DNA from: Flavobacteriales bacterium
GTDB lineage: Bacteria > Bacteroidota > Bacteroidia > Flavobacteriales_D > Sanyastnellaceae
Reading direction: 5' to 3'
DNA length: 64,000 nt
Assembly: GCA_018402085.1 (NCBI GenBank)
Contig: JAGYJM010000002.1
Coordinates: forward strand, 2,929,501 to 2,993,500
In this document: one piece after another, positions 663-36,685 of the stretch
How the letters are laid out: the number at the start of each line of letters is the position of its first letter
How positions within the stretch are numbered: position 1 is the stretch's first letter
The notes under the pieces: model-generated
What the model saw: only the letters and a program-made list of their open reading frames with translations
What the model was told of the DNA's origin: nothing
Databases searched by the model: none
Translations under genes and position numbers: made by a program

Positions 663-1334
663 ATGCGTGCTCTTCTTCTTTCCCTGACCTTGTGCTTTGT
701 CGGTCTCACGGTGGTAGGCCAGTACGACTCTACCCATTACGCCTTTCTTACCAAAGATCAGCACGCGGACTTGCTCGAAATCATGGGTGATTCTGATCCC
801 TATCCCGAACTCAGTGAAGACCCGTATGTTCAGGAAATCAAGCGCTTCATTGAGGAGCACTCGTACGTTGATCAGGTTGATATTGCCGTGATCGAATACC
901 CGGAGCTGAAGAAACTCGTCCCAAAATCCATGCAGGGCTACATCTGGGAGCCGATGTATGTGGTCTTCAGAATGAAAGACGGACAACCCGTGGGGGCCGC
1001 CTCCGGCATTGACACCAAAGAGAAAAAGGGTTCACAAATGCTTCTTCCCGGAGCAACGGAACCTTATACCGCCTCCCCGAAACAGTACAGCTTCTTCTTT
1101 CGCGATGCTGAGCTTGTGTACAGTACCATGAGATATACCAATGCCACACGCATGGGTTCGTGTGGGACGATTCACATTGAACATGTGGCCTACTTCAAAG
1201 ACGAGACTTTTTATAAAGGCAGCATCGGACAACAGTTGGATTGTTACGGCGAAGAACTCGATCCGAACACGCTGCTGGATCAGTCGGAATTTATGGTGTA
1301 TTTGTTTGAGTTGTGGAGTGAGGAGAGGCGGTGA
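663..1334 (+). CDS. secreted protein of unknown function
   Basis: I do not recognise this 223-aa protein. Residues 1-20 (MRALLLSLTLCFVGLTVVGQ) form a typical signal peptide ending in the V-x-x-Q pattern usual in this phylum, so the start at 663 is preferred over an in-frame ATG at 549 that overlaps the preceding gene. The mature part is acidic, with one internal cysteine pair (SCGTIHIEH and QQLDCYGEEL) that could form a disulfide, and it has no membrane segment. No sorting domain is seen at the C-terminus. It follows the binding-protein gene by 40 bases and may have its own promoter at 639. It is probably periplasmic or lipid-free exported; no role can be proposed. Confidence 0.7.
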   Translation: MRALLLSLTLCFVGLTVVGQYDSTHYAFLTKDQHADLLEIMGDSDPYPELSEDPYVQEIKRFIEEHSYVDQVDIAVIEYPELKKLVPKSMQGYIWEPMYVVFRMKDGQPVGAASGIDTKEKKGSQMLLPGATEPYTASPKQYSFFFRDAELVYSTMRYTNATRMGSCGTIHIEHVAYFKDETFYKGSIGQQLDCYGEELDPNTLLDQSEFMVYLFELWSEERR

Positions 1335-1436: not shown

Positions 1437-1518
1437 ACCTCATCTTCACCACCCAAAGCACCGTTTTCTGCAGCTCCCGCCACCAGGGGAGCACCAACAC
1501 ATCCGCCGCTTTCGCGGC
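1437..1518 (-). repeat. copy A of 82-bp radical-SAM-tail repeat with mini-hairpin
   Basis: Nearly identical to 9109-9190, which encodes the last residues of the radical SAM protein, and to 8234-8336. The mini-hairpin at 1500-1518 has stem GCCGC/GCGGC and loop GAAA, whereas the genic copy has stem GCCGT/ACGGC and loop AAAA. Outside the hairpin only one or two bases differ. Confidence 0.85.
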
Positions 1519-1751
1519 GAAGCAATCGAACCATTGAACAGTCAAACATTCTAACGTTTGATTATAAACACTGGCAAAATACAGGCGGCCTATATCGCAA
1601 CCCTATCCCGCTGCCCAGAAACGTATGTGTCAACCAAATGCCTGATCTTCGTGTGCTGTTTCGTATGGCAAACCACCTCCTCTGCAGCCACCAAAGGGTG
1701 AAGTCAGCGCGAACAGAACGCCATTCTTAGCCAAAATCAATGCCATTTCTC

Positions 1752-3299
1752 TTACCGCACAATCATCCAAACCACCAACACCTGCGCTGCAAACAGGGCA
1801 AAGCCAAACAACAACGCCTTTCCGAGGGAGGGAAGTACGCTGTGCCGCTGCAACTCTACACGATCTGAGAACCGCGTATACGACTCCCGGTCGCTCTCGC
1901 TGTTGGTCATCCACACAAAAACGGCCACGACCAGCAAACTGAGTGCTGTATACACCAACAACATCTTTGGATACTCAAGTTTGCTTATCCATTCCAGTTC
2001 TGAAAAAACAAGAGGAAGACCCTTGTGCAGGGCGACCAATAGGATTGGTAGCAGCATGGCCATCAGCTGGACTTGCGCATTGATCCGCCACCAAAACCAC
2101 CGCACGATGTAAACCAAGCCAACGCCCGCTGTTAAACCCAGCAGGAGCTCAAGCAAAACGGTTAGCTCATCCGCGTAAAATGCGATCCACCCGGCCAGGA
2201 GTGCTGTGCCCATCATGATTAGGCGTGAAGGAACAACCGATGCCTTTCGGTTTAATTCGCCGTAGATGCCGCTGAGAAGAAGTCCGCTGCCCCACAACTG
2301 CACAGCTTCGAAAGTCGACAAGAAAATGCCCAACAATCCGATGGCCATCACCGGTTTGAGCACATCGGGAAGCCGTTGCTGCACGACTACGAGGTACGCC
2401 TGCTGACCCGGCTCAATGCCCATTGATGCCGAGTGAACTGCAATAAATACCACAAGTGAACTCACAGCTACGGTGAGTACGCCCATTGTGAGCGATGCCA
2501 TAATGGCTCGTCTGCGTTTGATTCCCATCAACTGCTGCGCCTCAATGCCGGAGCCATCGATGATCTGTGCCGACCACCACTGCACACCGATGAAGGCGAC
2601 AAGCGCAATCGGGTCAGGAAGCAATGATGCGTCGGTTAAATTGGGCGCAAATGCGTATGGTTTCCCAACAAACCCCATTGCTACAAACACGAGCGGAATG
2701 AGGAATGCTGCAAAATGGACGACATCCACCACTGATTTGGCACGGTAGGACGTCCGCCAAGCGTTCAGTGCCATGGCCCCTGCAACAATCGCGATGGCGG
2801 CGGCCTTCTCGAACATGAAAAAGGTCATTAGCACATCAGAAAAGGCGAGCACCGAAAAGGCAAGCAGGATGGGCACAACCAAGCCTCCAACATAGAAGGC
2901 CCTAAAGCGACGTAAACGGCTCGCCCACGGCTGAGCGTAACGCAAGGTCAAGAATTCGTTCTCACTGATGAAATTGAGTTTGGCCCAAAGCGGTGCAAAA
3001 ACCATGGGCAAAAACCCCAGCGGAATGAGCGACGCCCATATGATCAGCAAATCGGCCGGCCCTTTCTCGGTGACAATTGCACTCACCAAGCCCGCCGATG
3101 AGATCGAATAGACCGACAAAAAGAGTACAACCCCACCCACACGCCAGCCGGTGTTTTGCGGCATGCGGAGGAGGTGGGAGAGGTTTCTTGCAGCCCGCCA
3201 TTTGTTCACAACAAACAGTAGCACAAAGTAAAACAGCAGAATGAGGGTTAAGCCTAATTTCATTGACTTGAAATGCTTGAACCGCAATTTAAACGGCAA
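1752..3299 (-). CDS. sodium:solute symporter family protein
   Basis: A 515-aa polytopic membrane protein with about 13 hydrophobic segments, matching the sodium:solute symporter (SSS, SLC5-like) family in length and layout. Family-like features are the loop FISENEFLTLRYAQPWASRL after the third helix and the segment GVQWWSAQIIDGSGIEAQQL, which corresponds to the family's W-x-x-Q region before helix 7. Such proteins couple sodium entry to uptake of sugars, amino acids, organic acids or similar solutes; the substrate cannot be read from the sequence. The start may instead be the internal methionine at 3263 (MKLGLTLILLFYF), which places the first helix right at the N-terminus as is usual. It is a single-gene unit. 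Confidence 0.85.
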   Translation of the reverse strand: MPFKLRFKHFKSMKLGLTLILLFYFVLLFVVNKWRAARNLSHLLRMPQNTGWRVGGVVLFLSVYSISSAGLVSAIVTEKGPADLLIIWASLIPLGFLPMVFAPLWAKLNFISENEFLTLRYAQPWASRLRRFRAFYVGGLVVPILLAFSVLAFSDVLMTFFMFEKAAAIAIVAGAMALNAWRTSYRAKSVVDVVHFAAFLIPLVFVAMGFVGKPYAFAPNLTDASLLPDPIALVAFIGVQWWSAQIIDGSGIEAQQLMGIKRRRAIMASLTMGVLTVAVSSLVVFIAVHSASMGIEPGQQAYLVVVQQRLPDVLKPVMAIGLLGIFLSTFEAVQLWGSGLLLSGIYGELNRKASVVPSRLIMMGTALLAGWIAFYADELTVLLELLLGLTAGVGLVYIVRWFWWRINAQVQLMAMLLPILLVALHKGLPLVFSELEWISKLEYPKMLLVYTALSLLVVAVFVWMTNSESDRESYTRFSDRVELQRHSVLPSLGKALLFGFALFAAQVLVVWMIVR

Positions 3300-3503
3300 G
3301 CATGAATAAATTGAGACTTATTCCGCAAAGCAACAAGAGATTCAATCAATACCCTCAAATCGCGCTCAATGACGGATTTGCGAATCGAACACAGTATTCT
3401 CGGTCAATTCACGCCTTACATTTTCGAGTAGATCATCTTGAATGGTTCTTGAAATATCGTATTCAAAAGTGATGTACAATTCCCATTATTGATGGTGTAC
3501 GCT

Positions 3504-5249
3504 TCATTGTATTTGATCCTGATTGATGCGATTTAACCAGTGATTAAATATGACCACCATTGCCATGGTGTCTAATTCGCAATAACTCTGTAATGCTTTT
3601 GCTGTGGCAGAATAGTCCGTATTTTCCCGATTTAGACGGTGCATTTCCTCGTATGCTATTATTGCCTGGGAGCCAATCGTAACCGCAGCACCTAAGCTCG
3701 CTTCTACAATCTGCCCCAGTTCAGTGTAAGGATCCGTTGTCGAAAGTATGACGGACTCATTGTTCACTTTCACAGGCACACACACTTCAGTGCTTTGTGC
3801 CGACAAAACTGCAGGAAGAACTGCCTTGATACTTAGTTTTCCTTTCATACGCGGATGGAAATAGCCCCGCTCAGCCAGGTCCATCATGTCTACCAACCGA
3901 CCGGCATTCAAATCAAATTGGCGATCAAGAAGTGTCCTTAACCATTCCCGATTGGGAATTGACTGCTTCAAGACTTCACTCACGGATGAAACCACGCTCT
4001 TCTCATAAGACGACCAGACCAATACACTGCCTGTATCACCGAGAAGCAAGGCAAGGGATTTGGCGAACCCAACAGTAGGGTCGACGTGAAGAGGGCCATC
4101 TAGGCCATGCAACCAAGAATAGTGTTGTAGATCAGCCCCGGGTCTTTCTATCTTGTGACAACTCCATTGAAAGGGCAGTACAGCGTTTGGAGATTGCCCC
4201 TTGTAAAGCGGAACCGTAGAGGAATACGTCTCAAAGTCGATGAAGAAGAGAGGATACTCCAGTGAAGAAATGTCATGAACCAAAGTAGGTCCGTGCCACT
4301 CTTGTCCCTGCCGGGTTTTTACTATTTGGAGAATCTGGCGAACGCCTCGAGATGAGAGTTCACCTTTCTTGTTTCTGAGCTCTGATTCTTGAATATCACT
4401 TAACGCGAGCCGACCTTGCCTGATGAGCTCATCAATTAGGGATGTCCCGTCAGAGGTCTTAATGCTCCCGCCATGGCACAGGTCAAAGATGTTGTTTTCC
4501 GGCAGTTCGTTCTTTGCCCAGCATTCGCCGAATCCATTCAATGACTCAGTTGGTGTTCTATATTCGCAATGCGCGCAATGCTTCCCGACGGACGCTTCAA
4601 ACACACCAGTTTGCAACATCTTCACTACATGCTCAATTGACATAATCTCTGACGGCAATAGGGCCTGTACTTGGTCATCGACCGAATCGAGATTGAAGAA
4701 GTCTGAATCTAATATTTTCCTGGCGACCTCCTCTTGTGCAAAGTCTTCTGCCCAAAACAACATGCCATCTTCGTTTGCGCTGAACCCCTTATTCGGCGTC
4801 ATCAAAAAGGGCGTAAGCGCAAAACCTTTGAATACCTGCTGAGCAACATGGTATTGAAACGCAACATCGACCAACTCATCTTTCAGCGAATCCACCGATC
4901 GTTTCGCGCCGGTCGCTTTCGATTTCACCTCAATCAAATCGATTTGATCGCCATTCTTAACAAGAATATCAACACGACAATAGAGACCGTTTGCTTCTAG
5001 GGGCACCTCAAAGAACACACCGAAATCGCATGCATTTATCTCATCAATTGATACCTTACGAACGGAGCAGTCGACGCACGCATGTTCTGCCATCCACCAC
5101 AACCTCGCCAACTTACCTACGAGGTCACCTTTTTCGCTCAAGAACGACATAAAGTCGCTCTCATCACTCACTTGAGGGTATCCTTCCCTCTTGTAGACCA
5201 GCTTTTGCGGACACGATCTTGCGAGTTGGTATTCTGATTTTGTGAGCAT
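3504..5249 (-). CDS. DUF2779 nuclease-like protein (PD-(D/E)XK plus RNase H-like exonuclease)
   Basis: A 581-aa protein with two nuclease-like parts. The N-terminal third holds a PD-(D/E)XK signature (D94, E107, K109 in CRVDILV and LIEVKS) with cysteines at 13, 225, 228 and 243, an arrangement like the iron-sulfur cluster site of Cas4/AddB-type nucleases. The C-terminal half is a DUF2779/DEDD exonuclease-like fold: FFIDFETYS with D338 and E340, the block GRLVDMMDLAERGYF, and a final acidic residue D560 in YCELDTMAM. Catalytic residues look intact. It starts 3 bases after the stop of another predicted nuclease (5253-6494), so the two are probably co-transcribed and act together on nucleic acid. 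Defence is inferred from this pairing and from the nearby MntA/HepT genes, not shown. Confidence 0.75.
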   Translation of the reverse strand: MLTKSEYQLARSCPQKLVYKREGYPQVSDESDFMSFLSEKGDLVGKLARLWWMAEHACVDCSVRKVSIDEINACDFGVFFEVPLEANGLYCRVDILVKNGDQIDLIEVKSKATGAKRSVDSLKDELVDVAFQYHVAQQVFKGFALTPFLMTPNKGFSANEDGMLFWAEDFAQEEVARKILDSDFFNLDSVDDQVQALLPSEIMSIEHVVKMLQTGVFEASVGKHCAHCEYRTPTESLNGFGECWAKNELPENNIFDLCHGGSIKTSDGTSLIDELIRQGRLALSDIQESELRNKKGELSSRGVRQILQIVKTRQGQEWHGPTLVHDISSLEYPLFFIDFETYSSTVPLYKGQSPNAVLPFQWSCHKIERPGADLQHYSWLHGLDGPLHVDPTVGFAKSLALLLGDTGSVLVWSSYEKSVVSSVSEVLKQSIPNREWLRTLLDRQFDLNAGRLVDMMDLAERGYFHPRMKGKLSIKAVLPAVLSAQSTEVCVPVKVNNESVILSTTDPYTELGQIVEASLGAAVTIGSQAIIAYEEMHRLNRENTDYSATAKALQSYCELDTMAMVVIFNHWLNRINQDQIQ

Positions 5250-5252
5250 GTG

Positions 5253-6494
5253 TTACCTCTTTGCTGCCGCTTCGAACGCCCATCTATTTGCAGAAATGTG
5301 CTTAAAGTACGCCACAAATAAGTCAACTACTTGATCAATTGTGGGTACGCTTTGCTCTTTAGCAAAGTCCTTATAGAAGTATAGAAAAACTCCTTTAGAG
5401 TACTCGCAAAAACCCCTTGTATTGCCGCGCTCATCCCTCATACCTAGCCCACCAAAATAGTCCTTCCGACGCCCGGAGCCAGATAACGCTGCTCCATTGT
5501 CTAAATCATAGAACCAGAGTTTTCTATGCCAAAGTTCCAAGGCAAATTTTTCATTCCTCGAAGGATCAGGATGTATCGTATATAACCGGAATTGATTGCC
5601 TTGCAGTTGAATACCGACTTGAAAACCGTCGGCTACATTTACATCGACCGACGTAATGCCAGTGCTATTTGTAAATTCTGCAACGCTTCTATTTGGTGAA
5701 ATGTTAATCAGAGCTAGTCTTAACCGCACCTCTTTCGCAATCCTCTGGTGAATGAGTTTCAGCACTAAATCATGCAATCGAATTGAACGCAATTGATCAA
5801 CCACTCCCTGGGTGATGTAAAAGTCATAAGCCTTATCAAAAAATGAACCACAGGCATTGGAAATCAAGCCGAATTGATCTAGAAGTGCAATCTGGTCATC
5901 TAAGAAAGAAATATACTTATCGATTACGAGCCCCACTTCAGGATTCTCGAAAGAGAAACCTTTGGTTGCTTTTAAGAACTGCAGCACGTGATTGCGATAA
6001 GTGATGTTGACCCAGCCATCAGCTTGTCCAACCTCCCAGTCATCAACGGATGACATGGTGAGTAAATATGTTCCCTTAACAATAACTGGCAATGCATTCA
6101 ACTCATCCCCATGGAGTTGCCTAATAATCTTGGTCCCAGCGATTCTTTTTGCTTTTTCAGAATATTCTTGTAACTGCTTTGCGGTTGGCAGACTCTTGAC
6201 CTTATTTTCGAGGAAAATACACCACCACTCCCTGTCAACACGCCACCGTATTATGAGATCAACATTCTGTTCTTCTCTAGCTATTTCAAAATCGTAAATA
6301 TTCTTATCCTCACCTAAAAAAGAACGGTTTCCAAAGACTACCTCCAAAAACTCCTCGAGCATCTTCGAGCGATGATTGCCCGAAACAGATTGGTCTAATA
6401 TCCAACCAAGTATATTGCTATGAAAAAGCTCTTTTGATCCTAATGAAGCTTGAAAGAGAAAATTACTCTTAAGTGATTCTATTAAATCTTGCAT
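5253..6494 (-). CDS. PD-(D/E)XK nuclease superfamily protein
   Basis: A 413-aa protein opening with ELFHSNILGWILDQ, like the N-terminal (E)xxHSNxLxWLL motif of a bacterial PD-(D/E)XK family. The nuclease core follows: D79 in NVDLIIRW, E96 and K98 in IFLENKVKS, then Q107 and Y111 in KQLQEY. These are the expected catalytic positions, so activity is likely. The C-terminal 250 residues are unrecognised and may bind target or partner. It is the first gene of a two-gene unit with the DUF2779 protein. Both genes are more A+T-rich than polA or dxs in this window, suggesting separate ancestry. Related proteins occur in phage-defence settings; this role is inferred. Confidence 0.7.
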   Translation of the reverse strand: MQDLIESLKSNFLFQASLGSKELFHSNILGWILDQSVSGNHRSKMLEEFLEVVFGNRSFLGEDKNIYDFEIAREEQNVDLIIRWRVDREWWCIFLENKVKSLPTAKQLQEYSEKAKRIAGTKIIRQLHGDELNALPVIVKGTYLLTMSSVDDWEVGQADGWVNITYRNHVLQFLKATKGFSFENPEVGLVIDKYISFLDDQIALLDQFGLISNACGSFFDKAYDFYITQGVVDQLRSIRLHDLVLKLIHQRIAKEVRLRLALINISPNRSVAEFTNSTGITSVDVNVADGFQVGIQLQGNQFRLYTIHPDPSRNEKFALELWHRKLWFYDLDNGAALSGSGRRKDYFGGLGMRDERGNTRGFCEYSKGVFLYFYKDFAKEQSVPTIDQVVDLFVAYFKHISANRWAFEAAAKR

Positions 6495-6870
6495 ATAAAA
6501 TGATCTTTACAATCTCATTACATTTACGGATTCCCATTTTTTATTTTCGCTTATGACCGTGTTAATTACTTTGCACACTTGCCAAGCTCATTCGATCTCC
6601 AACTCTGAAAGAGCGACTCACATTGCTCAAAATAACTCATTGTTTCGTGTTTTTCACAAACTTATAGTCTTCCTTGTTGCCCCACCCCTTTCATCTTATT
6701 TCATCTTTTAAGCAAGGCGGAACCGAAGGCACGAAAAACCGCCGGTGACTCAAGCTTCGTTTAACCTGAGGGTGCCGGCGGATGAATGAGTAGGATGAGT
6801 CCCGTCAAATGGGGGGCTGAGATGGTGTAAATTTGACTTTCGTCTGCAAACCAACCTATTTAATCTTGTT
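6495..6870. other. intergenic region with one large hairpin
   Basis: No gene seen. The only structure is the hairpin at 6739-6781; the stretch 6500-6720 is A+T-rich with no recognisable element and may hold the promoter of the two nuclease genes. Confidence 0.5.
6741..6784 (+). repeat. expanded-loop mini-hairpin variant
   Basis: GCCGG...CCGGC followed by GGATG. The stem extends to CCGCCGG/CCGGCGG at 6739-6745 and 6775-6781. The loop is 29 bases and contains a nested CTCA/TGAG pairing. It lies downstream of the 6871-8280 gene and could also serve as a transcript end. Confidence 0.5.
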
Positions 6871-8280
6871 TCATCTCGAAGCAAACCGGGTGAATCCCGT
6901 CTGCCGAATCCATGCAGAACGCTCTTCGCGCGTGAGACCATTGCGACCAAATAAACCCATGGCACGGTCCATTAACAATAAATGATAGGCCGTCTCCCCC
7001 TCTCCCAAATGGTAGCCCGTGCGCAAAACCCGTTCGACCCGCTCATCTGACGCGCCGGACATCAACTCCCGGTAAAGCCGAGCGCGTATGTAAACAGGTT
7101 GCATAACGGGCTCAAATGTTGGATTCACCGGTAAGCCGCTCACAAGACGTTCCAAACCGGAACGATCCTTTAACATGACCAAAGCGTCTGCTATCAATAC
7201 AGTCGCGAATTCCATCTCCCAGGGTTTGGCAACATCGGAAAATTGACCCAAGTAAGCCAGCCATTCCTCCGCTTCCAAAGCTGTTGTACTGCCCTTCACT
7301 CCTGTGCCTTCAATCAACTTAAAGGCCTCAAATCGAAAACGAATAAAGGTGAAGTTTAGTGAATGAGCCTCTATAAACTCTTCAATTGCCGGACTATTCA
7401 ACAACCTACGGTAAAACCGCTGCCTCTGCTCATCCTCTGATAACCAAGAAAAGAAGTGCAACATCAGGTAGGCAAACAAACACGAAGCAATCCATTGCTG
7501 ATCAGCACAAGATAGCAAACCCGGAAGGGCGCCACTGCTCCTCACGCCAGAGCGGTTCAACATTTGCTCCAATGAATTTCCAAAAACACTTAAGCCTTGA
7601 TTGTAATCAACGTAGGTCTCGAAATAATAGGTGCGGATTTGGGGCATTCCTAATATGGCCTCAAAAGTTGGTCCTTTCTTGCCAGACCCAAGCTCGTTCA
7701 CTACAAAATCGCCCAGAGCTTTCCCGATGATATGGCGCTCCCAACCCAGGGCCAAATGGTCCATTGGTAAATCCTCCATGAATCCCAACAAAAGGTCGGT
7801 TTCAGAATTGTGCAAATTCATGCTTAACAGCTTGTATAAAGCTGTTTGGCTTGGCACTTTACGGGAAATAAATGGGTTTGCTTCGTGATCCAGATTTCCA
7901 ACAGAAGACTTATATTTCGTTGTCTCGATGAACTCTTCTAAAAGGTCGACGGTGTATTGGTAAGGCGAAACGCCATACTTTTCGGGGTAGAGCATCCGAA
8001 ACAAGGTGATGGCAGACACTTTTCGTCCGATGCTCCGTTCCATCTCTCGTGAGAGTACTTTGCAGTTAGCTATCGTTCCAGACAGTAAACCCAGGCGCTC
8101 CAAAGCGCGGCAGGTCAATTCACATCCTAATTGCTGCTTCTCCGTTATCTGATTCAACCCCGTTTCGTTTCTGAGCAAGAAGAAAAGGAAATTTCTAATA
8201 ATTTTGCTCTTGATTAAGACGAATTCGCGACTCACCTCATCTTCACCTCCCAAAGCACCGTTTTCTGCAGCTCCCGCCAC
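6871..8280 (-). CDS. protein of unknown function with HTH-like N-terminus
   Basis: I do not recognise the family of this 469-aa soluble, helical protein. Residues 50-110 (CKVLSREMERSIGRKVSAIT then LFRMLYPEKYGVSPYQYTVDLLEEFI) resemble an N-terminal helix-turn-helix-like segment found in many Bacteroidota proteins, where C-x-x-L-x-x-x-I is followed by S-x-x-T-L-x-R. The rest is leucine- and glutamate-rich, perhaps helical repeats. The only start for the full frame is a GTG at 8280 inside a repeat copied from the end of the radical SAM gene. The first 17 residues would therefore be encoded by repeat DNA, and the authentic start may lie downstream (a TTG near 8175 is possible). It sits between the nuclease pair and MntA/HepT. 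Confidence 0.6.
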   Translation of the reverse strand: MAGAAENGALGGEDEVSREFVLIKSKIIRNFLFFLLRNETGLNQITEKQQLGCELTCRALERLGLLSGTIANCKVLSREMERSIGRKVSAITLFRMLYPEKYGVSPYQYTVDLLEEFIETTKYKSSVGNLDHEANPFISRKVPSQTALYKLLSMNLHNSETDLLLGFMEDLPMDHLALGWERHIIGKALGDFVVNELGSGKKGPTFEAILGMPQIRTYYFETYVDYNQGLSVFGNSLEQMLNRSGVRSSGALPGLLSCADQQWIASCLFAYLMLHFFSWLSEDEQRQRFYRRLLNSPAIEEFIEAHSLNFTFIRFRFEAFKLIEGTGVKGSTTALEAEEWLAYLGQFSDVAKPWEMEFATVLIADALVMLKDRSGLERLVSGLPVNPTFEPVMQPVYIRARLYRELMSGASDERVERVLRTGYHLGEGETAYHLLLMDRAMGLFGRNGLTREERSAWIRQTGFTRFASR

Positions 8281-8336
8281 CAGCGGAGCACCATAACATC
8301 CGCCGCTTCCCGAAGGCTCGGGACAAGTTTCGCGGC
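8234..8336 (-). repeat. copy B of radical-SAM-tail repeat with expanded mini-hairpin
   Basis: Same repeat as 1437-1518 and 9109-9190. At the hairpin position (8297-8336) the loop is 25 bases and carries a nested CCCGAAGGCTCGGG hairpin. A degenerate echo of the right end (CGGGATAAGTTTCGCGGCG) follows at 8341-8359. Reading through this copy gives the unknown gene its GTG start. Confidence 0.8.
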
Positions 8337-8406
8337 GAATCGGGATAAGTTTCGCGGCGCCTGCTTGCTATCTGAAGGATATCAATCGACTTCACTGAAG
8401 GCCTTT

Positions 8407-8751
8407 TTATAAGTTGTCATTTAGCAGATCTTCAATTTCCTTCAGAAGGTCATCCAATTCCAATCTGATGATGTCCCAAACGATGGTATAGTCTACTCCG
8501 AAATACTCGTGAATGAGTCGATTTCGATAACCTCGCAATTGCTGCCAGGGAATAAACGGGGCCGAAAGTTGAAACCCTTCATCTACTCGTGACGCGGCTT
8601 CTCCTATGATCTCGAAATTACGAACTACGGCATCGATGGTTCGGTCATCAGCGATGAAATCATCGAAAGTCATTCCGGAGACATACTTCTGGATTTTACG
8701 TCCGGCAATCAGCATATCTTCTACCAACAGAAGTGAATTCCGCTTAGACAT
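8407..8751 (-). CDS. hepT: HepT-like HEPN ribonuclease toxin
   Basis: A 114-aa all-helical protein of the DUF86/HepT family. The defining R-x4-H-x-Y motif is present as R76, H81 and Y83 in RNRLIHEYF. In characterised HepT/MntA pairs the HEPN protein is an RNase, and the tyrosine of this motif is adenylylated by MntA, which silences the toxin. The preceding helix NFEIIGEAASRV is also typical. The gene overlaps the 3' end of mntA by 8 bases, the usual operon order in which antitoxin precedes toxin. All key residues are present, so it should be functional. Confidence 0.9.
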   Translation of the reverse strand: MSKRNSLLLVEDMLIAGRKIQKYVSGMTFDDFIADDRTIDAVVRNFEIIGEAASRVDEGFQLSAPFIPWQQLRGYRNRLIHEYFGVDYTIVWDIIRLELDDLLKEIEDLLNDNL

Positions 8752-9070
8752 ACTGTAGGTCTTGCGCTATCTCTTGAAAGTACTTATCGCGAATACCCTT
8801 TCTGGAGACCAGATCTACTTTTCTCCCCAGCAGCGACTCAAGCTCCAGTGCGAGGTCGATGAAGCGAGAACCAACAGTTCCGTCGAACTCCACCAAAATG
8901 TCAACGTCACTTTCAGGACCAAAGTCTTCACGGGTCACCGATCCGAACAAGGCCATCGAACGAATGGGGTACCGTGACTGTAAGCGCCCTAATGCCTCGC
9001 GCAATAATTGAACGATTTGTTCTGAAGACTTCACATTCAAAGATAAGAAAGAACTCTTCTCTGAATTCAC
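8744..9070 (-). CDS. mntA: MntA-like nucleotidyltransferase antitoxin
   Basis: A 108-aa minimal nucleotidyltransferase with the G-S-x10-D-x-D signature: G43-S44 in ALFGSVTREDFG and D55, D57 in SDVDILVEF. In this family the enzyme transfers AMP from ATP to the tyrosine of the partner HepT and so neutralises it. The start is a GTG at 9070; no ATG is available. About 35 bases separate it from the stop of the radical SAM gene, so transcription may come from that gene or from within its end. The overlap with hepT supports translational coupling. Confidence 0.9.
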   Translation of the reverse strand: MNSEKSSFLSLNVKSSEQIVQLLREALGRLQSRYPIRSMALFGSVTREDFGPESDVDILVEFDGTVGSRFIDLALELESLLGRKVDLVSRKGIRDKYFQEIAQDLQYV

Positions 9071-9106
9071 GCAGGTAATCCCGTCTCGAAGACCGTTTGA
9101 GGCGAC

Positions 9107-11296
9107 TCACCTCATCTTCACCACCCAAACCACCGTTTTCTGCAGCTCCCGCCACCAGGGGAGCACCAACACATCCGCCGTTTTTACGGCGCCTGAAGCT
9201 ACACGCAATGACTCAGCGAACGTGCGCATTTCCACACCGTTAGACTGGAGGAGATCCATCTCTGACCAGTACTTTTGCAGGCAATCAGCGACCGCCGGCG
9301 GAACCGTGATCTGACTGACGCCGCCATCGCCGCGCAGCTCAAGCTGGATCTTGCCCTTGTGCTTACCTACCTCGCGCAACATGCCGCGGTAGTGAAAAAC
9401 GCGGTAGCCCGGGTGCTTCAGCGGATCTTCATCGAGCTGCTTCAGGGCCTTGCGCACCAGCTTGCGCGAAACCGTCGGCTGCGGCACCGGAAAGTCAAAG
9501 AACTCCTCCAAACTGAAATCGAGCCCGTTGCCGTGCATGTAGTTGTACAGGGCCTTGTTCAACCCTTCGCTGTAGCGCTCGTGATCACAACCGGCAGGAT
9601 CTTCGTGAAAGAGGTCGTTATTGGCAAAGCCGGCAAACTCAGGACCTGTGCGGACGACCTTGTACTTGGCCGGATCCTTGCCCACCGGACTGTGTGCCGT
9701 CATCGCAAACTGGTGCCAGAAGGCAGAATGCACGAATCCTTCTGCAAACAGCTGACGAACGATTTCGAGCGAATCAATGGTCTCCTGCTCGGTCTCGGTC
9801 GGGAAGCCATACATCAGGTAGGCATGCACCATGATACCGGCATCCCTGAAACCTCTGCACACACGGGCGACCTGCTCAACGGTAACGCCCTTCTCCATCA
9901 ATTCAAGCAAGCGGTTGGTCGCCACTTCAAGTCCGCCCGTAACGGCGATGCACCCGCTGGCAGCGAGCAATCGGCACAGGTCGTGCGTAAACGTCTTCTC
10001 AAACCGGATGTTCGTCCACCAGGTCACTTGCAATCCCCTGCGCAAAATCTCCAGCGCAAGGTCACGCATGGCCAGCGGCGGTGCGGCTTCATCTACGAAA
10101 TGAAAGCCCGTTTCACCGGTCTGCGCTATGAGCGCCTCCATTTTATCGACCAGTTCTTTCGCCGGCGACTGCTCAAATCGCCCGATGTAATCAAGCGTCA
10201 CATCGCAAAAACTACACTTCTTCCAATAGCATCCGTGCGCAATCGTCAGCTTATTCCAGCGGCCGTCATTCCACAAGCGGTGCATCGGGTTGGGCATATC
10301 AAACATTGACAAATACGCATCCAGTCGCAGCCCGCGGTAATCCGGTGCCGGCAACTTCGCGTGTCCGAAATCACCGCCCGCAAGGTTATTCACGTACTCA
10401 ACCTCTTCACCATTTCGTCTGAAAGTTCGCTTCAGAAAAGGGTGTATGGTCGGTTCTTTTACATGGCGCAAAAGCGCCAGGATGGGGCCTTCGCCGTCGT
10501 CAAGTGTGATGTAGTCAACGTAATCAAACACCCTCGGATCCGTGAGATCGCGCAGCTCGGTGTTCGGATAGCCGCCCCCCATCGTCACGATAGTCTCGGG
10601 ATAGTGCAGCTTGATCCACTGTCCGACCTTCAGTGCGCCGTAGAGGTTACCACCAAAGGGCACCGTAAAGCCAACGACTTCGGGCACTCCTTCTTCAAAG
10701 TAGCGCGCTGCCACCCGAATCAGGATGTCATCGACGTAGTTGTTGGGCGCAGTGAGGGCCGCTTCAATGGGATCAAACGAGCTGGCGGTGCGTGAGATGC
10801 GCTCGGCGTATTTTGAAATCCCGAGATACGGACCGACCGTCGCTGAAATCAGATCTACCAGGTCTTCGAGGTAGAGCGAACAGAGGTAGCGCGCCTGGTC
10901 TTGCACGCTGTTGGTGCCGAAATGCCACTCGAGGTCAATGGCCGCCTCGAAGCGCGGACCTTCAGGAAGAAAAGTGCGCCTGGCAATGCGGTAGCCGAGG
11001 GTGAGACGTTTGTTCTGCAGAAATGCTACAACCTCATCAATGGTCGCGAGGTAGGCCTCCCGCTGATCCATGACCTCAAGCACGTCGGGATTGATCTCCG
11101 TTGTGGTTTCAATATGCGCATCAATGGCCGCGAACAGATCGGTTAGTCCCTGCCGGTTAAACAGCTCGAGGATGAGATCGAGTCCGAGATCGCCCTGACG
11201 CGTGGCCACACCTTGCTGCTCAAGAAAACCCTTGAGGTAGGCCGTGGCCGGATAGGGCGTATTGAGTTGCGTCAGTGGCGGAATCAGCAAAAGCAT
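9107..11296 (-). CDS. B12-binding domain radical SAM protein
   Basis: A 729-aa protein. The N-terminal part (about 1-290) has a cobalamin-binding-like fold with the GGGYPNTE and DYITLDDGEGPILALL segments typical of B12-binding radical SAM enzymes. The radical SAM core follows with the cluster motif C356-x4-C361-x2-C364 (GCYWKKCSFC), then GGLEVATNRLLELMEKGV and YLMYGFPTETEQE. The substrate cannot be predicted; these enzymes often perform methylations or ring rearrangements. A -7 box TACCTTTG lies 5 bases before the ATG. The last 25 codons are duplicated as loose repeats at 1437 and 8234. Two mini-hairpins lie in the gene, at 9172 (sense, near the C-terminus) and 10464 (antisense). Confidence 0.85.
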   Translation of the reverse strand: MLLLIPPLTQLNTPYPATAYLKGFLEQQGVATRQGDLGLDLILELFNRQGLTDLFAAIDAHIETTTEINPDVLEVMDQREAYLATIDEVVAFLQNKRLTLGYRIARRTFLPEGPRFEAAIDLEWHFGTNSVQDQARYLCSLYLEDLVDLISATVGPYLGISKYAERISRTASSFDPIEAALTAPNNYVDDILIRVAARYFEEGVPEVVGFTVPFGGNLYGALKVGQWIKLHYPETIVTMGGGYPNTELRDLTDPRVFDYVDYITLDDGEGPILALLRHVKEPTIHPFLKRTFRRNGEEVEYVNNLAGGDFGHAKLPAPDYRGLRLDAYLSMFDMPNPMHRLWNDGRWNKLTIAHGCYWKKCSFCDVTLDYIGRFEQSPAKELVDKMEALIAQTGETGFHFVDEAAPPLAMRDLALEILRRGLQVTWWTNIRFEKTFTHDLCRLLAASGCIAVTGGLEVATNRLLELMEKGVTVEQVARVCRGFRDAGIMVHAYLMYGFPTETEQETIDSLEIVRQLFAEGFVHSAFWHQFAMTAHSPVGKDPAKYKVVRTGPEFAGFANNDLFHEDPAGCDHERYSEGLNKALYNYMHGNGLDFSLEEFFDFPVPQPTVSRKLVRKALKQLDEDPLKHPGYRVFHYRGMLREVGKHKGKIQLELRGDGGVSQITVPPAVADCLQKYWSEMDLLQSNGVEMRTFAESLRVASGAVKTADVLVLPWWRELQKTVVWVVKMR
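9109..9190 (-). repeat. copy C of the 82-bp repeat (3' end of radical SAM gene)
   Basis: Genic copy of the repeat also found at 1437-1518 and 8234-8336. The mini-hairpin at 9172-9190 has stem GCCGT/ACGGC and loop AAAA and encodes A-V-K-T-A-D in the gene's frame. Confidence 0.85.
10464..10484 (+). repeat. mini-hairpin, antisense inside radical SAM gene
   Basis: TGGCGC-AAAA-GCGCCA-GGATG, a 6-bp stem version. The encoded segment GPILALLRHV is a normal part of the family, so coincidence is possible here. Confidence 0.5.
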
Positions 11297-16987: not shown

Positions 16988-18661
16988 ATGTTAAAGTCTT
17001 TTCTCTCCCTCTTTTTGCTTGCTTTTATTATCGGCGCAAAAGCGCCGGATGCGAACGCGCAGGTTACGAATGAATTCACCCTGAATTTCGCAGTAGACGA
17101 TCACCGCCCCACCACGGAGTCACTTGTCCAACTTCAGAAATTTTTGAATGAATACAGTGTCGATGACGACCTGAGCATCCGGATTTACGGCCATACAGAC
17201 ACCAACGGTGACGCAGCTTACAATGATGAACTGTCATGGCGAAGATGCACGACCGTCAAAGACGAAATTCTGGCAATCGGATTCCCTGAAAACGCCATTT
17301 CCACCGTCGCCTATGGCGAACATAAACCGGCACAGAACGATCATTCACCTGCTGCACACCGAACGAACCGACGGGTTGAAGTGCACGTTGAAAAACACAC
17401 ATTCAACACTACCGAAGAACTAACCGCAGCGCTTTCGCCTGATGAAGTACAGCAGTTCTCCATTGATGCTGATGAACCAGCTAAAATAACCTCAGGCAAC
17501 GGCATCATCTTTGACATCCCTGAGAATGCTTTTGTGGATGCTGCGGGGCGCCCCTACAAAGGAGAGGTCATTATGGAAGTTGAAGACGCCCTGGATCCGA
17601 TCAAGTTTATTTCAAGTAATCTGTCAACCCTCAACCACCAGGGAGAAATGCTCGAATCAGGCGGTATGTTCCGCATCGAAGCGACCGACCCTGATGGCAA
17701 TCCGCTGCAACTGAGCGCCTCATCAAGTATTGGTGTGGATGTACCTGTGCGCAATGCACTTGACGGCATGAGCGTTTTCACCTCAGGCGATGGCAGCAAC
17801 TGGACCAACACCAGTCGTCCGGTGGACTTGAACCAACCTCCGGTATACCCGCCAAAGCCAACATACCCCGGTGAAGCCGTATTTGTGCACCCTCCTGTAC
17901 CGAAAATCCCTGAAGCACCCCGAAAGCCGGCTATACCTTATCGCCCTGTGAACCCGGAAAAGCAAGAGATTACCCAGGTGAACGACCTCAACATTGAGCG
18001 CTATCTAAGGGCCATGGAGGTATTCAAACGCGATTCTGCCAGCTACCCTGATCGCATCGACCAATACCGCCAAGACTCCCTGAAATGGGCTGCTGAAAAA
18101 CATGAAATGCTCGAAACTTACCACAAGGTCACCGTTCCGGCAGCTCATGAAGAATGGAAAAAGACCTTTATTGACCCGGATCGCGCCTACCAACTCGAAA
18201 TGACGCGCTGGCGCGCGAAATGTGAGTTGATTTCGATCGAACATTACGGCAGTTTGCTCGACAATGACTACATGGATGCGCGCATGCTCGGTACCTATGC
18301 GTTGAGGGTGAGTTCTCTCGGCTGGTGCAATATTGACCGACTGATGCGCTACGGCAACAACGAACGAATAGACGTACTTGTTCAGGCTGACGACCCGAAC
18401 GCACAGCTCTGGCTCGTGCTGAACGACTACCCTTCCATGTTCAATATGGGTGCGCATAAAGGAGTTGCCGAACAGTCAAACTTCCCTTACGTCCCGGCCG
18501 AGGCAATCGCCTTAACCGTCAAAGATGGTGAGGTGATGTTCGGACATGCTCCGTTGACGCGCGATGGAAAAGTAACCATTGAAACAAGGCCTTCGAGCCT
18601 CGAAGAGATCCGCGACTACCTCAGTCAATTCAGAACCGGCGCGCTGCAGGCCAGCAGGTAG
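16988..18661 (+). CDS. exported OmpA-domain protein
   Basis: A 557-aa protein. Start 16988 is chosen because residues 1-16 (MLKSFLSLFLLAFIIG) form the signal peptide core; an upstream in-frame ATG at 16952 would bury it. Cleavage likely follows NAQ. Residues about 25-135 form an OmpA-C-like peptidoglycan-binding domain (IRIYGHTDTNGDAAYNDELS, then RTNRRVEVHV). A beta-rich domain follows (ITSGNGIIFDIPENAFVDA then LESGGMFRIEAT), a type common in Bacteroidota surface proteins. A proline-rich stretch comes next (about 285-330) and then an unrecognised C-terminal region. Having the OmpA domain N-terminal is unusual, since it is most often C-terminal. The signal peptide's end (G-A-K-A-P-D) is encoded by a mini-hairpin at 17033. 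Likely periplasmic or outer-membrane associated. Confidence 0.75.
   Translation: MLKSFLSLFLLAFIIGAKAPDANAQVTNEFTLNFAVDDHRPTTESLVQLQKFLNEYSVDDDLSIRIYGHTDTNGDAAYNDELSWRRCTTVKDEILAIGFPENAISTVAYGEHKPAQNDHSPAAHRTNRRVEVHVEKHTFNTTEELTAALSPDEVQQFSIDADEPAKITSGNGIIFDIPENAFVDAAGRPYKGEVIMEVEDALDPIKFISSNLSTLNHQGEMLESGGMFRIEATDPDGNPLQLSASSSIGVDVPVRNALDGMSVFTSGDGSNWTNTSRPVDLNQPPVYPPKPTYPGEAVFVHPPVPKIPEAPRKPAIPYRPVNPEKQEITQVNDLNIERYLRAMEVFKRDSASYPDRIDQYRQDSLKWAAEKHEMLETYHKVTVPAAHEEWKKTFIDPDRAYQLEMTRWRAKCELISIEHYGSLLDNDYMDARMLGTYALRVSSLGWCNIDRLMRYGNNERIDVLVQADDPNAQLWLVLNDYPSMFNMGAHKGVAEQSNFPYVPAEAIALTVKDGEVMFGHAPLTRDGKVTIETRPSSLEEIRDYLSQFRTGALQASR
17033..17051 (+). repeat. mini-hairpin in the signal peptide region of the OmpA-domain gene
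   Basis: GGCGC-AAAA-GCGCC-GGATG, encoding G-A-K-A-P-D between the hydrophobic core and the probable NAQ cleavage site. Confidence 0.85.
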
Positions 18662-24791: not shown

Positions 24792-27700
24792 TTGACGCCC
24801 TTGCATCCAACCGGTTTTTCATATCACCAACCCCTTGTTTTTCTGCTACTTATCATCCTGCCATTTCTGGCAGCCGGGCAAGATGGAAATGAGTGGATTG
24901 ACTACGACCAGCAGTATTGGAAATTCGATGTGGTAGAAGACGGATTGTATCGGCTGACCTATGACGAACTGGTTGCTGCCGGGTTGCCACTGAGCATGAT
25001 GCAGGCCGATGATCTCAAGGTGATGGGACGCGGCGAGCAGCAGTTTGTGATCGTCAACGATGGTGGTGACAACAGCATCGGTCCGGGCGACTATATCGAG
25101 ATGCTGTGCCTTGGCAATGACGGCTGGCTTGATCGCGAGATTTACGACTCCCCCGAGCATCAGGCCAATCCGAATTACAGCCTTTTCAATGATACGGCTA
25201 CTTATTTCCTCACCTGGTCTGCGCAGTTGTCGTTAAGAACCCAGGCTTATGACCCTCAGAATTCAGCCGAAGAACTCACCCCTGCGCCTTATGTGAACTA
25301 CTCTTCGCGTCTTGACCTGACGAGCAATTACATGCTGGGTAAGCAAGACATCAATGGCATCTCCTTGCCTTACTACGAAGAGGCTGAAGGCTGGTTTGAC
25401 GCCCGGTTCCCAATGGGGTCTTCGCGCACGCATCAGGTGGTGCATCCTTTTCCTTTTAACGGCGCAGAAGCGCCGGATGCTACGGTGCGCGCAGTCTCCG
25501 CAAGTGCATCGATCGCTCCGGGGGCTGCAAATCACCACCTGCAGGTCGGATACGGAACGCCTTTCAACGTAGTGGTTGACACCACCTATTTTGGATACCA
25601 GCTTAACACTTTTGACTTCTCACTCTCTCCGGATGAACTGAACGGAAATGCCCTATCTGTGACCCACCAGTCAGTTGACGACCTCGGAGTGGCCAGCGAC
25701 TGGCATGCCGTAGGATGGATACAGCTTGACTATGCGCGGATCCCGAACTTCAGCGAAGGCGGTATGCAGCGCTTCCGCCTCAGAAACTTCGACGATGCGG
25801 CAGAAGGTCGACTTGACATAACGAACTACCCCGGAGCCTCTCCCCGCCTGTTTATTGAACTAAGCACTGGTCTGCGCCGCGAAATTCCGGTAGAGCTCGA
25901 CGGCGGAACGCTCACTGCCGTCGTCCCATTCATTGACAATCCGGCAGCGGTCAGTCTCCTGCTCACCGATGACAGCCTTACTGAATCTGTACTGAACCTG
26001 GCTCCGGTTACCCAGAACGGATTTTTCACCGATTACGCCTCTACACCGCTCGACAGCGCGTTCGTCATTATCAGCCATCCGAAGCTCTGGCCCGCCGCGG
26101 TAAATTACGCCGCCTACCGTGAAAGCCAGGGTATGGATGTCTTGCTCGCCGATGTGGAAGAGCTCTACATGCAATACGCAGCAGGCATCCGAAAGCACCC
26201 CCTCGCCATCCGGCGCTTTTGCGCCGATCTGCTGCAAAGCTGGCCTTCAGACCCCTCGCACCTGTTCATTCTCGGAAAATCGATTTATGAGATGAAGATC
26301 AGCGTCACCCCGATGGCGCGCGATAACCCCGAGTTTTACGCCCGAAACCTCATACCGAGCTGGGGCTACCCGACGAGTGATCTGGCTTTTACATCCGGAC
26401 TCAACGGCACCATTGCTGACCCCGCGATACCCACCGGCCGACTTGCTGCGCAAAGTATTGAAGAAGCCCTTGATTACCTGAACAAAGTGATCGAATTTGA
26501 AAACCAGGAGCCTGCACCCTGGATGAAACGGGTGATGCATTTTGGCGGCGGTGGCAATGCGTTCGAACAGAACCTCTTTGTGACCTACCTGGGCAACTAC
26601 CGTCAAATTGTGCAAGACACCTGTTTCGGGGGGGATGTATTCAGCTTTTTCAAGACCACGACCGACCCTATTCAGCTCAATGTAAGCGACTCGATTCAAT
26701 TTTTGATCGATGACGGTGTCAGCCTGATGACCTTCTTCGGTCACGCCAGCAGCACGGGCTTTGACGTCAACATCGATTCACCCTCGAGTTACAACAACCA
26801 GGGCAAGTACCCGCTGCTGATCGGCAACAGCTGCTACACCGGAAACATCCACCTGCCAAACGGTGAGAGCACCAGCGAGAACTTCGTACTGGTGCCGAAT
26901 GCCGGAGTGATCGGTTTCATTGCGAAAGGCGACCTCGGTGCGCCGAGCTACCTGAACATCTGGACCGAAAACTTCTACCGTCAGAATTTTCAGCAAAACT
27001 ACGGCGGCTCGATCGGACAAAACATGAAGCGCGCCGTGCAGAGCTTTCAGAGTCCGAACATGAACCTCCTGCTCGAAAACACTGCGCTCACCTTTGCCCT
27101 GCATGGTGACCCGGCAATTGTCTTGAACGCATGGGATCGTCCGGACCTCGAAGTGCGCATTGACGACATCGTATTCGACCCTCCTGAGGTGAGCGCAGAG
27201 CTCGAGACGTTTGAGGTCAAAGTGGCGGTGACCAACATCGGTAAAGCTACGAATGAGGGCTTCGGGGTAGAACTGATCCGCCATCTGCCGAACGGACAAG
27301 ACACTTCGCTTGTGGTTGAGATGCCTCCGGTGTACTACCGTGACACTGCTGTCTTTGAGCTTCCCGTTGATGTACTGAACGGTATTGGTCTGAACAGTTT
27401 TGACGTACTCGTTGATTTCCCGGCCGACGCCGTTGATGAACTTGAAGACCTGAGCAACAATACCGTCACCGGTAAAGAACTCTTCATCACCAGTGGCAAC
27501 CTCGTTCCGGTCTATCCGTTCAACTACGCGATTGAACCGGGACAAATCACCCTGAAAGCGAATACGGCGAACCCCTTCGCAGAGCCACGCAACTACCGCA
27601 TCCAGATCGATACCACCGACGGCTTTGACAGTCCGCTCATGACCGAAACCCTCATCAATGCCCCCGGTGGTGTGATTGAGTGGGACGCCCCAATGACGCT

Positions 27701-30397: not shown

Positions 30398-31489
30398 ATG
30401 CGCTCTCTATACCTCTCGGTTGCACTGACCGTGATCGCATCCTGCGCTTTTGCGCAGAGCAATTATTACGACGCACTCATTGAAAAAGCCACAACGTCAA
30501 CGCTAAGCGGCGATGCCTTGAAAGCGGCATTGCACGACCTCATCGATGACCACCAAACCTACCCGTATACGAGCAGCAGTGCGGATACCTGGGACATCCT
30601 CAAAGAGTCGGATCGCGACCCGGCGAACCCCGCGAATGTCATTTTAGTGTACTCAGGAGCCAGCGTCAACGCAGCGCAAGAGTACAACAGCGGCAAGGGC
30701 TGGACACGCGAACATGTCTGGGCGAAAAGTAGAGGCGATTTTGGCACTTCGCAAGGCGCAGGCACTGATTTGCACCACCTCAAGCCCTGCGCTACTCGCG
30801 TGAATTCGACGCGAAACAACCGCAATTTTGACAACTGCCTTAATTGCGAAAACGTCTTCTACAACGGAGAAGCCACAGGATCATACACCGATGGCGATCA
30901 CTACACCTTCACGCCACGGCGACAGGTGCGTGGCGACATCGCGCGCATGATTTTTTACATGTCCGTGCGCTACGAAGGCGGAAGTGAAGTTGACCTTGAG
31001 CTGCAAAATGAACACCTCTCGCAATCAGACAAAAGCCCCTTTCACAGCAACCTTCAGACGCTGCTGCTGTGGCATGAAACTGACCCGGTCGATGACTTCG
31101 AGCGCAACCGAAACGAGGTGATTTTCAACTACCAGGGCAACCGCAATCCGTTCATTGACTTCCCGAATCTTGCTGAGTTGATTTGGGTAGACACCACCCT
31201 CGCATGGACTCCGGATGCATCGGTTGTGGTGACTGAAGAGGTTGTTGATGGTGGAGACTTTTCATCTGAAAGCACCACTGCTTCTGAAGAAACAGATGCA
31301 CTCAGTAGCTTTTCAGCCACCTTCACCTATGAAACCATGCGCGTATTTGACAGTACCAACAATAAGCTCATCCTGGAGGTCAGCGGCCAGACGACCTTCT
31401 CGCTTGACATGCTCGACGCCGGCGCCTACCGCATTGAATTCATAGGCGGCCCGTTCGATGGCACCTCCATTCACTTGACGCGGCAATGA
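30398..31489 (+). CDS. secreted endonuclease I family nuclease with type IX sorting domain
   Basis: A 363-aa exported nuclease. The signal peptide is residues 1-20 (ending AFAQ), which fixes the start at 30398 rather than the open-frame ATG at 30281. The catalytic region GWTREHVWAKSRGDFG, DLHHLKPCATRVNS and RNNRNFDNC matches the endonuclease I/Bsn ββα-metal nuclease family, which cuts DNA and sometimes RNA non-specifically outside the cell. The last 60 residues (LILEVSGQTTFSLDMLDAGA) resemble a type A type IX sorting domain, so it is probably released or surface-bound to scavenge extracellular DNA. A mini-hairpin (30438) forms part of the signal peptide code. Confidence 0.88.
   Translation: MRSLYLSVALTVIASCAFAQSNYYDALIEKATTSTLSGDALKAALHDLIDDHQTYPYTSSSADTWDILKESDRDPANPANVILVYSGASVNAAQEYNSGKGWTREHVWAKSRGDFGTSQGAGTDLHHLKPCATRVNSTRNNRNFDNCLNCENVFYNGEATGSYTDGDHYTFTPRRQVRGDIARMIFYMSVRYEGGSEVDLELQNEHLSQSDKSPFHSNLQTLLLWHETDPVDDFERNRNEVIFNYQGNRNPFIDFPNLAELIWVDTTLAWTPDASVVVTEEVVDGGDFSSESTTASEETDALSSFSATFTYETMRVFDSTNNKLILEVSGQTTFSLDMLDAGAYRIEFIGGPFDGTSIHLTRQ
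30438..30456 (-). repeat. mini-hairpin in the nuclease signal peptide
   Basis: CATCC-TGCGC-TTTT-GCGCA on the plus strand, coding for S-C-A-F-A-Q at the signal peptidase site; antisense orientation. Confidence 0.75.
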
Positions 31490-36666: not shown

Positions 36667-36685
36667 CATCCTGCGCTTTCGCGCA
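36667..36685 (-). repeat. mini-hairpin abutting the terminator
   Basis: CATCC-TGCGC-TTTC-GCGCA. The CATCC directly joins the terminator hairpin, the same arrangement as the composites at 45237, 46155 and 46330. Confidence 0.8.

Follow-up and report, generated by a model that had tools for sequence, protein, structure and literature searches.

Islands that integrate at the 3' ends of genes (icd, tRNA genes and similar targets) duplicate the gene end. The known high-copy motifs of bacterial genomes are either fixed sequences, such as DNA uptake sequences (DUS) and the highly iterated palindrome HIP1, or insertable units, such as repetitive extragenic palindromic (REP) elements. REP elements are hairpins of 20–40 bp with a GTAG or CGTC tag and stems mostly of 6–9 bp, and those within genes are described as insertions that encode extra residues (PMC3733652). 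HIP1 is a fixed 8-mer tied to methyltransferases, for which creation in place by methylation-directed repair has been proposed (PMC4390886), whereas DUS are fixed sequences that occur at higher density in core genes and in many cases differ too much from the homologous sites to be explained by point mutations (PMC2397512). In three Bacteroidota, REP candidates have been counted with RepRanger under relaxed rules (PMC12306157). Here we describe an 82-bp repeat, derived from the 3' end of a radical SAM gene, in a window of 64,000 nucleotides from a Flavobacteriales bacterium of the Sanyastnellaceae (assembly GCA_018402085.1, contig JAGYJM010000002.1, positions 2,929,501 to 2,993,500, forward strand). 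The hairpin at the edge of this repeat is a member of a dispersed, genome-wide family defined by structure, and the principal features of the locus are:

711..1334, plus strand: native neighbour gene, convergent; in the congeners G001 and G002 about 7 bp lie between the end of its orthologue and the radical SAM gene
1437..1519, plus strand: repeat copy C, a spare gene end with stop TAG, beside the native neighbour and probably the displaced original end
1500..1519, plus strand: hairpin of copy C, CATC, stem CGCCGC, loop TTTC
8234..8337, plus strand: repeat copy B, a spare gene end with stop TGA plus GTCGC and a long nested hairpin
8297..8337, plus strand: hairpin of copy B, tag CATC, stem CGCCGC, loop of 25 nt that holds an inner hairpin
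9109..9191, plus strand: repeat copy A, where the intact gene has its 3' end (stop TGA)
9172..9191, plus strand: hairpin of copy A, CATC, stem CGCCGT, loop TTTT, within the coding sequence, antisense
9107..11296, minus strand: radical SAM gene (B12-binding/radical SAM type), 729 aa, Pfam Radical_SAM 53.5 bits, cut-off 29.5

A preliminary description of the window had reported three copies of the repeat, nearly identical outside a variable hairpin, one of them with a 25-base loop. All three are where it placed them, and that loop is indeed found in copy B, in which the nested hairpin and its tag span 8297–8337. Of the 68 bases outside the hairpin, 1 distinguishes the copy at 1437 from that at 9109, 4 distinguish 1437 from 8234 and 5 distinguish 8234 from 9109; scored against the first copy, the other two reach 132 and 118 bits, and 20 Markov-shuffled windows reach at most 27.4 bits. 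The same description had proposed to collect all copies in the genome and to compare divergence inside and outside the hairpin. This search, carried out over the whole genome (3.78 Mb) with a 73-nt query (seven candidates scored), returned at E ≤ 0.001 only the three copies within the window, so that collecting copies cannot separate the divergence of the hairpin from that of its flanks, and dispersal of the 82-bp repeat itself was dropped as an explanation. Translated on the minus strand, the copies read (A/V)K(A/T)ADVLVLPWWRELQKTV(L/V)WVVKMR-stop, with a few changes in the copy at 8234, and each reads through to its own stop codon; the copies at 8234 and 9109 also have about seven further bases in common past that codon (8227–8233 and 9102–9108). 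Folded as DNA, the two short hairpins have energies of -8.5 and -7.3 kcal/mol (z -2.9 and -3.7), and the long one has a z of -1.9 over 50 nt and of just -0.8 over 72 nt. An Rfam search of the window gave no match, and the repeat and its hairpin thus belong to no RNA family described there.

One copy had been recognized earlier as the 3' end of the radical SAM gene, with the flanking DNA as what was copied, and both statements hold: the last 27 codons and the stop codon of the gene are the repeat. The copies are nevertheless not equals. The proteins of the two congeners, the only other genomes of the genus compared, align up to residue 727 of 729, same-family homologues align to 727–728, and homologues close with a similar tail, WW..R..vlWvlK. 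Since homologues carry such a tail, the gene end is the source of the repeat and the other two copies are spare ends. Read along the gene, the order is the gene end (TGA GTCGC), a nucleotidyltransferase and a HepT-like gene, a spare end (TGA GTCGC), four open reading frames (ORFs), a spare end (TAG) and the native neighbour. In both congeners the alignments of the gene and of the neighbour end 7 bp apart (69329/69336 in G001, 3977853/3977860 in G002), whereas about 7.7 kb separate the two genes in the focal genome, which places the insertion of these 7.7 kb exactly there. As the congeners put copy C beside the native neighbour, this copy is best read, from the alignments, as the original gene end, displaced and still at its ancestral place. 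A survey of radical SAM loci (110 in all, at least two of them fetched twice; 106 with a readable ORF, namely the focal positive and 105 others) revealed no second gene end downstream in any of the 105 other loci, with 0.2–10 kb visible. Eight of them have DNA matches of just 11–30 nt and seven have weak peptide matches (E 0.004–0.03), the one in L108 lying on the same strand, and many radical SAM homologues in the survey carry an unrelated tail.

Similarity to the gene runs as far as the hairpin in each spare copy and no farther. The 200 bases upstream of it contain no excess similarity in either case (89 of 300 and 279 of 300 shuffles score equally). Each spare copy has the tag and the start of the left arm (CATCCGCCG) in common with the gene and then continues into the loop and right arm of a different hairpin. 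The hairpin is the junction: homology stops there, and each copy meets a different hairpin. Between the copies at 1437 and 9109, the hairpin differs at 3 of 15 bases, including both partners of one base pair, compared with the single difference in the 68 flanking bases, and the greater difference noted in the preliminary description is therefore real. Its reading of the hairpin as changing faster than its surroundings is upheld only as an appearance, produced where the spare copies run into different hairpins past the common left arm; a fast-changing loop inside a copied unit is not what is found. With 113 strict hairpins of the family, each of 20 nt, in 464 kb, about 0.5% of bases belong to one, so that two independent repeat ends both falling on such a hairpin would be unusual.

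The family is defined by a CATC tag, a 6-bp stem that has a C-G closing pair and an almost unconstrained sequence, and a loop of TTTT, TTTC or TTCT. Its evidence comes from one assembly of one species, with the details taken from a 464-kb sample. The GCCGC-stem form has 92 matches in the genome, compared with one for a reversed-pattern control; among 60 genomes searched, the two congeners have none and the others at most 16 (the genome with 16 also has 9 control matches). The window contains 24 instances of CATCC with a perfect stem, whatever its sequence, immediately after it (mean 3.0 and maximum 7 in 20 shuffles). The motif CATCCN5TTYYN5G, which leaves ten stem positions free, occurs 895 times genome-wide and its reversed-pattern control 31 times; in a search of 100 genomes the congeners have 47 and 52 matches and the others 1–93, and across 395 genomes of the class all others stay at or below 220 matches (in 9.5 Mb) and about 44 per Mb, compared with 237 per Mb in the focal genome. 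There are 113 strict members in the 464-kb sample and one in 1.96 Mb of loci from other genomes. When the tag is left free, perfect 6-bp stems with TTYY loops are preceded by CATC in 119 of 154 cases, the base after CATC being C in 118 of the 119; among the 19 tags that make up the 154, CGTC occurs once and GTAG is absent. The loops are TTTT (63), TTTC (35), TTCT (21) and others (4). Counting the perfect stems that follow CATC and enclose a TTYY loop gives 0, 1, 112, 1 and 0 for lengths of 4, 5, 6, 7 and 8 bp, respectively. Members lie on both strands with near-Poisson spacing (mean 4.65, variance 5.7 per 20 kb), and those elsewhere in the window are:

17032..17051, minus strand: family hairpin
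24854..24873, plus strand: family hairpin
25460..25479, minus strand: family hairpin, no gap versus G002
26207..26226, plus strand: family hairpin, no gap versus G002
28604..28623, minus strand: family hairpin, no gap versus G002
30438..30457, plus strand: family hairpin
31653..31672, minus strand: family hairpin
32860..32879, minus strand: family hairpin
36667..36686, plus strand: family hairpin
41555..41574, minus strand: family hairpin
44083..44102, minus strand: family hairpin, no gap versus G002
45257..45276, plus strand: family hairpin
46175..46194, plus strand: family hairpin
46350..46369, plus strand: family hairpin
48088..48107, minus strand: family hairpin
51104..51123, minus strand: family hairpin, nearby gap in the G002 alignment
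62444..62463, plus strand: family hairpin

Pairing is conserved where sequence is not. When the inner pair of one stem class was left free, all 87 matches were complementary at it (C:G, T:A, A:T and one G:C). The 464-kb sample contains 128 distinct matches, of which 117 have perfect stems, one has a single mismatch and ten have two to five mismatches, about the number expected from chance matches. Thinning by removal of matches with more than 60% flank identity, a step that took out the one single-mismatch case, left 100 perfect stems among 110 matches, none with a single mismatch, and 37 stem sequences (37–38 types in the 464 kb), the outermost free pair in this thinned set being of all four types (46 G:C, 21 T:A, 20 A:T, 15 C:G); a wider but biased set of 189 matches includes five single-mismatch stems. 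In 260 kb of G002 there are four motif matches, none paired, and in the aligned columns 64 of 157 pairs are complementary in G002, compared with 157 of 157 in the focal genome. Perfect arms of this kind could be made or preserved by something that reads the tag and loop on single-stranded DNA and not a fixed sequence. That such a structure-reading process is at work, for instance a repair that copies one arm from the other, is conceivable, though we would sooner doubt it than assume it.

Placement within genes was assessed with a home-made gene finder based on codon usage, by which 74% of the sample is coding. Predicted genes contain 62 of the 113 strict members (19 sense, 43 antisense), evenly spread along gene length, and 38 of the 43 antisense members are in one reading frame, giving peptides such as A(K/E)AxD. 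After seven of the 62 were dropped as lying in repeated protein domains, 31 of the remaining 55 gave a usable alignment with G002; these 31 are not a random draw, the G002 pieces having come in part from a sample and in part from a search for which 23 genes were chosen, and a few of the aligned pairs (L190, L191, L205; about 34–37% identity) may be paralogues. No gap lies within two residues of the hairpin in 26 of the 31 alignments. Amino-acid identity to G002 is 0.41 within the hairpin and 0.61 in the flanks, so that the hairpins cost residues. Pieces of phosphoglycerate kinase, queuine tRNA-ribosyltransferase and an NAD-dependent ligase that carry hairpins align to their Pfam profiles without net length change (protein and profile lengths 112/112, 89/89 and 114/114, respectively), and in one protein substitutions are the only differences between repeat units that carry a hairpin and those that lack one. 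Because 26 of the 31 alignments contain no such gap, the comparisons indicate that the hairpins overwrote existing codons and were not inserted. MutS, picked out by eye as a further hairpin-bearing gene, is not claimed, the 120-aa piece having no Pfam match. Among sense members, the CTGCGC-stem hairpin recurs as the peptide ASCAFAQ (at 30438 and in several genes in L194, L196 and L203), in several cases near the gene start and then resembling the end of a signal peptide.

At the locus, the identity of the repeat as a gene end, the order of the parts, the stop codons, the empty site of both congeners and the junctions at hairpins are shown; a donor, an order of events and a mechanism of two exchanges are what we infer. 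Incoming DNA with its own copy of the gene end and its cargo would have joined at the hairpin inside the last codons of the gene, and would have done so twice, displacing the original end, so that the intact gene would now close with an incoming copy. Each join may have combined one homologous exchange inside the gene with one short-homology exchange between hairpins having the arm CATCCGCCG in common, which would amount to the homology-facilitated illegitimate recombination expected with linear donor DNA. One homologous and one short-homology end would yield the structure seen, and what would set it apart from that process as known is that both short-homology ends here would be hairpins of one family. 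Together, this account of the locus and a genome-wide hairpin family written over existing sequence form the reading that we consider, on balance, probable.

Several points weigh against this reading. As to overwriting, five of the 31 alignments do contain gaps, including that of the radical SAM hairpin itself (one codon) and that of one signal peptide. As to a repair step, the two arms are not clearly unequal in their identity to G002 (90 of 157 for the 5' arm, 73 of 157 for the 3' arm; sign-flip p 0.075). The edge of copy B may be less sharp than stated, as about nine bases (CAGGCGCCG) just upstream of its hairpin were seen by eye to precede the hairpin of the gene as well. Copy B, which would have been displaced second, diverges more from the intact end than copy C does (5 of 68 and 1 of 68 bases), the reverse of simple ageing under the proposed order. 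Finally, no donor genome, circular form or recombinase was seen, and how the joining took place is only what we infer.

Two other accounts of the locus have to be set beside the double joining at hairpins. The duplicated end that flanks the cargo, the restored gene, the displaced original end and the tandem units in one orientation are all as in islands at gene 3' ends, and a classical integrative element that uses the gene 3' end as its attachment site, supplies the replacement end and is served by an integrase in trans would explain why direct repeats of the gene end bracket the two tandem units and why the gene is whole again; four tyrosine-recombinase matches are present in the genome. Unlike in such islands, neither unit contains an integrase match and the repeat edge is a dispersed hairpin; Pfam, PADLOC and NCBIfam searches of the six cargo ORFs revealed no recombinase, and the absence of a second end from all 105 other radical SAM loci, as far as the visible 0.2–10 kb downstream reach, also speaks against such an element, which we hold to be doubtful. 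An ordinary tandem duplication followed by deletion down to the gene ends would agree with the single orientation of all copies and their position within 8 kb, but the spare copies retain nothing upstream of the hairpin beyond the shuffle level and the cargo is unlike the neighbouring native genes, which makes this course improbable.

For the family, REP elements are similar in appearance, as high-copy short hairpins with a tetranucleotide tag at one end and complementary stem subfamilies, some genic and some species-specific (PMC3733652). The tag beside a short hairpin and complementary stem changes like those of GTAG/CGTC REPs, together with the presence of one Y1_Tnp gene in the genome, would suit a REP-like family dispersed by a Y1 (HUH) transposase of the REP-associated tyrosine transposase (RAYT) kind. 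Yet the tag here is CATC, the stem is fixed at 6 bp with nearly free sequence, and over half of the hairpins lie in predicted genes, apparently overwriting codons without insertions or deletions (indels), where published intragenic REPs are described as adding amino acids (PMC3733652). Unlike RAYT genes associated with REPs, the Y1 gene is not flanked by family hairpins: its 3.3-kb locus has none adjacent and one about 1.4 kb away. We judge a RAYT-driven origin unlikely. In their number, their location in core genes within existing sequence and a divergence too great for single point mutations, the hairpins resemble DUS and the uptake signal sequences (USS) of Haemophilus (PMC2397512). A signal for DNA uptake or exchange like Neisseria DUS or Haemophilus USS, recognised as a hairpin, would account for the high copy number, the presence on both strands, the Poisson-like spacing, the overwritten codons in conserved genes and the lack of any short-loop member strictly inside the inserted 7.5 kb, although about two are expected there and this absence is weak; known uptake sequences are, moreover, fixed sequences (PMC2397512), while only tag, closing pair and loop are constant here, and an uptake signal is to our mind a minority possibility. 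Like HIP1 and the alternate HIPs of cyanobacteria, the family is a very frequent genome-wide palindromic motif, the HIPs being replaced by others in sister lineages (PMC4390886); unlike in HIP, constancy is confined to structure, tag and loop, and the sequence of the paired part is variable. An origin as a side product of repair (methylation-directed or quasi-palindrome), in line with the proposal for HIP1, would fit overwriting without indels, the near absence of one-mismatch stems (1 of 128) and the species-specific burst, but leaves the CATC tag, the exact 6-bp stem and the loop unexplained, and we give it no more credence than the uptake signal. Between a REP-like system, an uptake-like drive and a by-product of repair the present data do not discriminate. 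An intrinsic terminator was rejected, as in the CATC orientation the sequence is A-rich after the hairpin, and the opposite strand is T-rich before it, not after.

The CATC hairpins are likely a new variety of high-copy genomic motif; searches in the full text of open-licence papers in PubMed Central found no account of hairpins like them. More tentatively, the roughly 800–900 shape-defined hairpins (CATC, exact 6-bp stem, pyrimidine tetraloop) might represent a categorically new genomic mark, written in place by structure in one species and serving as preferred joints for incoming DNA, a proposal we put forward with more doubt than conviction. If it is true, a family defined by structure only, set on conserved genes without indels and absent from congeners, would point to a cell process that recognises DNA shape genome-wide and can write or protect hairpins, and if the hairpins also join incoming DNA, a genome-wide mark would be linked to the acquisition of islands. 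A comparison of strains within the species would directly show the origin of such a mark.

The six cargo ORFs of the inserted DNA are:

1752..3299, minus strand: many-helix transporter-like ORF (by eye), no family match in Pfam or NCBIfam
3504..5249, minus strand: DUF2779 protein, with a PDDEXK_1 match slightly under the cut-off
5253..6494, minus strand: PDDEXK_4 nuclease-like protein, Pfam 51.9 bits, cut-off 22.3; PADLOC candidate defence family PDC-S26
6871..8280, minus strand: ORF without a family match in Pfam, PADLOC or NCBIfam
8407..8751, minus strand: predicted HepT-like RNase toxin, Pfam HepT-like 95.5 bits, cut-off 23.5
8744..9070, minus strand: nucleotidyltransferase (MntA-like), Pfam NTP_transf_2 55.8 bits, cut-off 21; PADLOC candidate PDC-S09

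Two of the six thus match candidate defence families in PADLOC. In NCBIfam, the nucleotidyltransferase scores 44.5 with MntA_antitoxin and the HepT-like protein 42.8 with HepT_toxin, both under the cut-off of 60. The DUF2779 gene has no match in either congener. The GC (guanine plus cytosine) fraction is 0.446 for the nuclease-like pair (3504–6494) and 0.455 for the MNT-HepT pair (8407–9070), compared with a sample mean of 0.50; both are near the 5% points of the genome sample (0.458 for 3 kb, 0.441 for 660 nt), while the transporter-like ORF, at 0.527, is not low.

A second insertion lies on the other side of the radical SAM gene (11297–20309), where the spacing to the orthologue of 20313–22094 is about 8 bp in G001, about 3 kb in G002 and about 9 kb here, the last including a large ATPase (11955–15446) that by eye is SbcC/YhaN-like. 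Copy C is flanked on both sides (1338–1397 and 1505–1552) by a GCCGC-type hairpin followed by degenerate 8-mer repeats (ACCATT.AACAGTC.AACATTC), and similar octamer arrays occur elsewhere in the window. The nested 25-nt loop, with CCCGA..TCGGG inside, is present in 9 of the 92 GCCGC hairpins (for example 8297–8337 and 45084–45124) and gives the impression of a hairpin whose loop has received another small hairpin.

Viral carriage of the hairpins was considered and set aside: viral contigs have one exact match to the GCCGC form and none to the TGCGC form, and the 8.5 kb around the single match contain no second member, which leaves it at chance level. A replication-linked polarity was likewise dropped. 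The GCCGC subset looked polar along contig 2 (5 of 2000 permutations; 85 of the 92 matches used, the seven on contig 1 being left out), but a GGCG-stem subset leans the opposite way over the same interval (17 plus and 9 minus versus 25 plus and 31 minus; p 0.10) and the 20-kb samples have no trend by eye. Hairpin classes with the tags ATAG, TCCC, AGAG and TCAC (at most 16 examples of each judged) were left out as largely tandem arrays, and those with AGCA and ACCC as partly a tRNA-like array. About a dozen tRNA-like tandem units with a spacing of about 110 bp lie at approximately 14979–16100 of L205, and in L188 and L201 another hairpin (GGACGCC...GGCGTCC) forms dense tandem arrays with a spacing of 60 bp. 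Family members also occur in or near arrays: seven CAGCGT-stem hairpins stand in tandem on one strand of contig 1 of the focal genome (127984–128981) at intervals of about 157–167 bp, and in the window a long gene (37589–42297) has three 1044-bp repeats followed by a 111-bp tandem array, with a family hairpin about 25 bp past one edge of that array.

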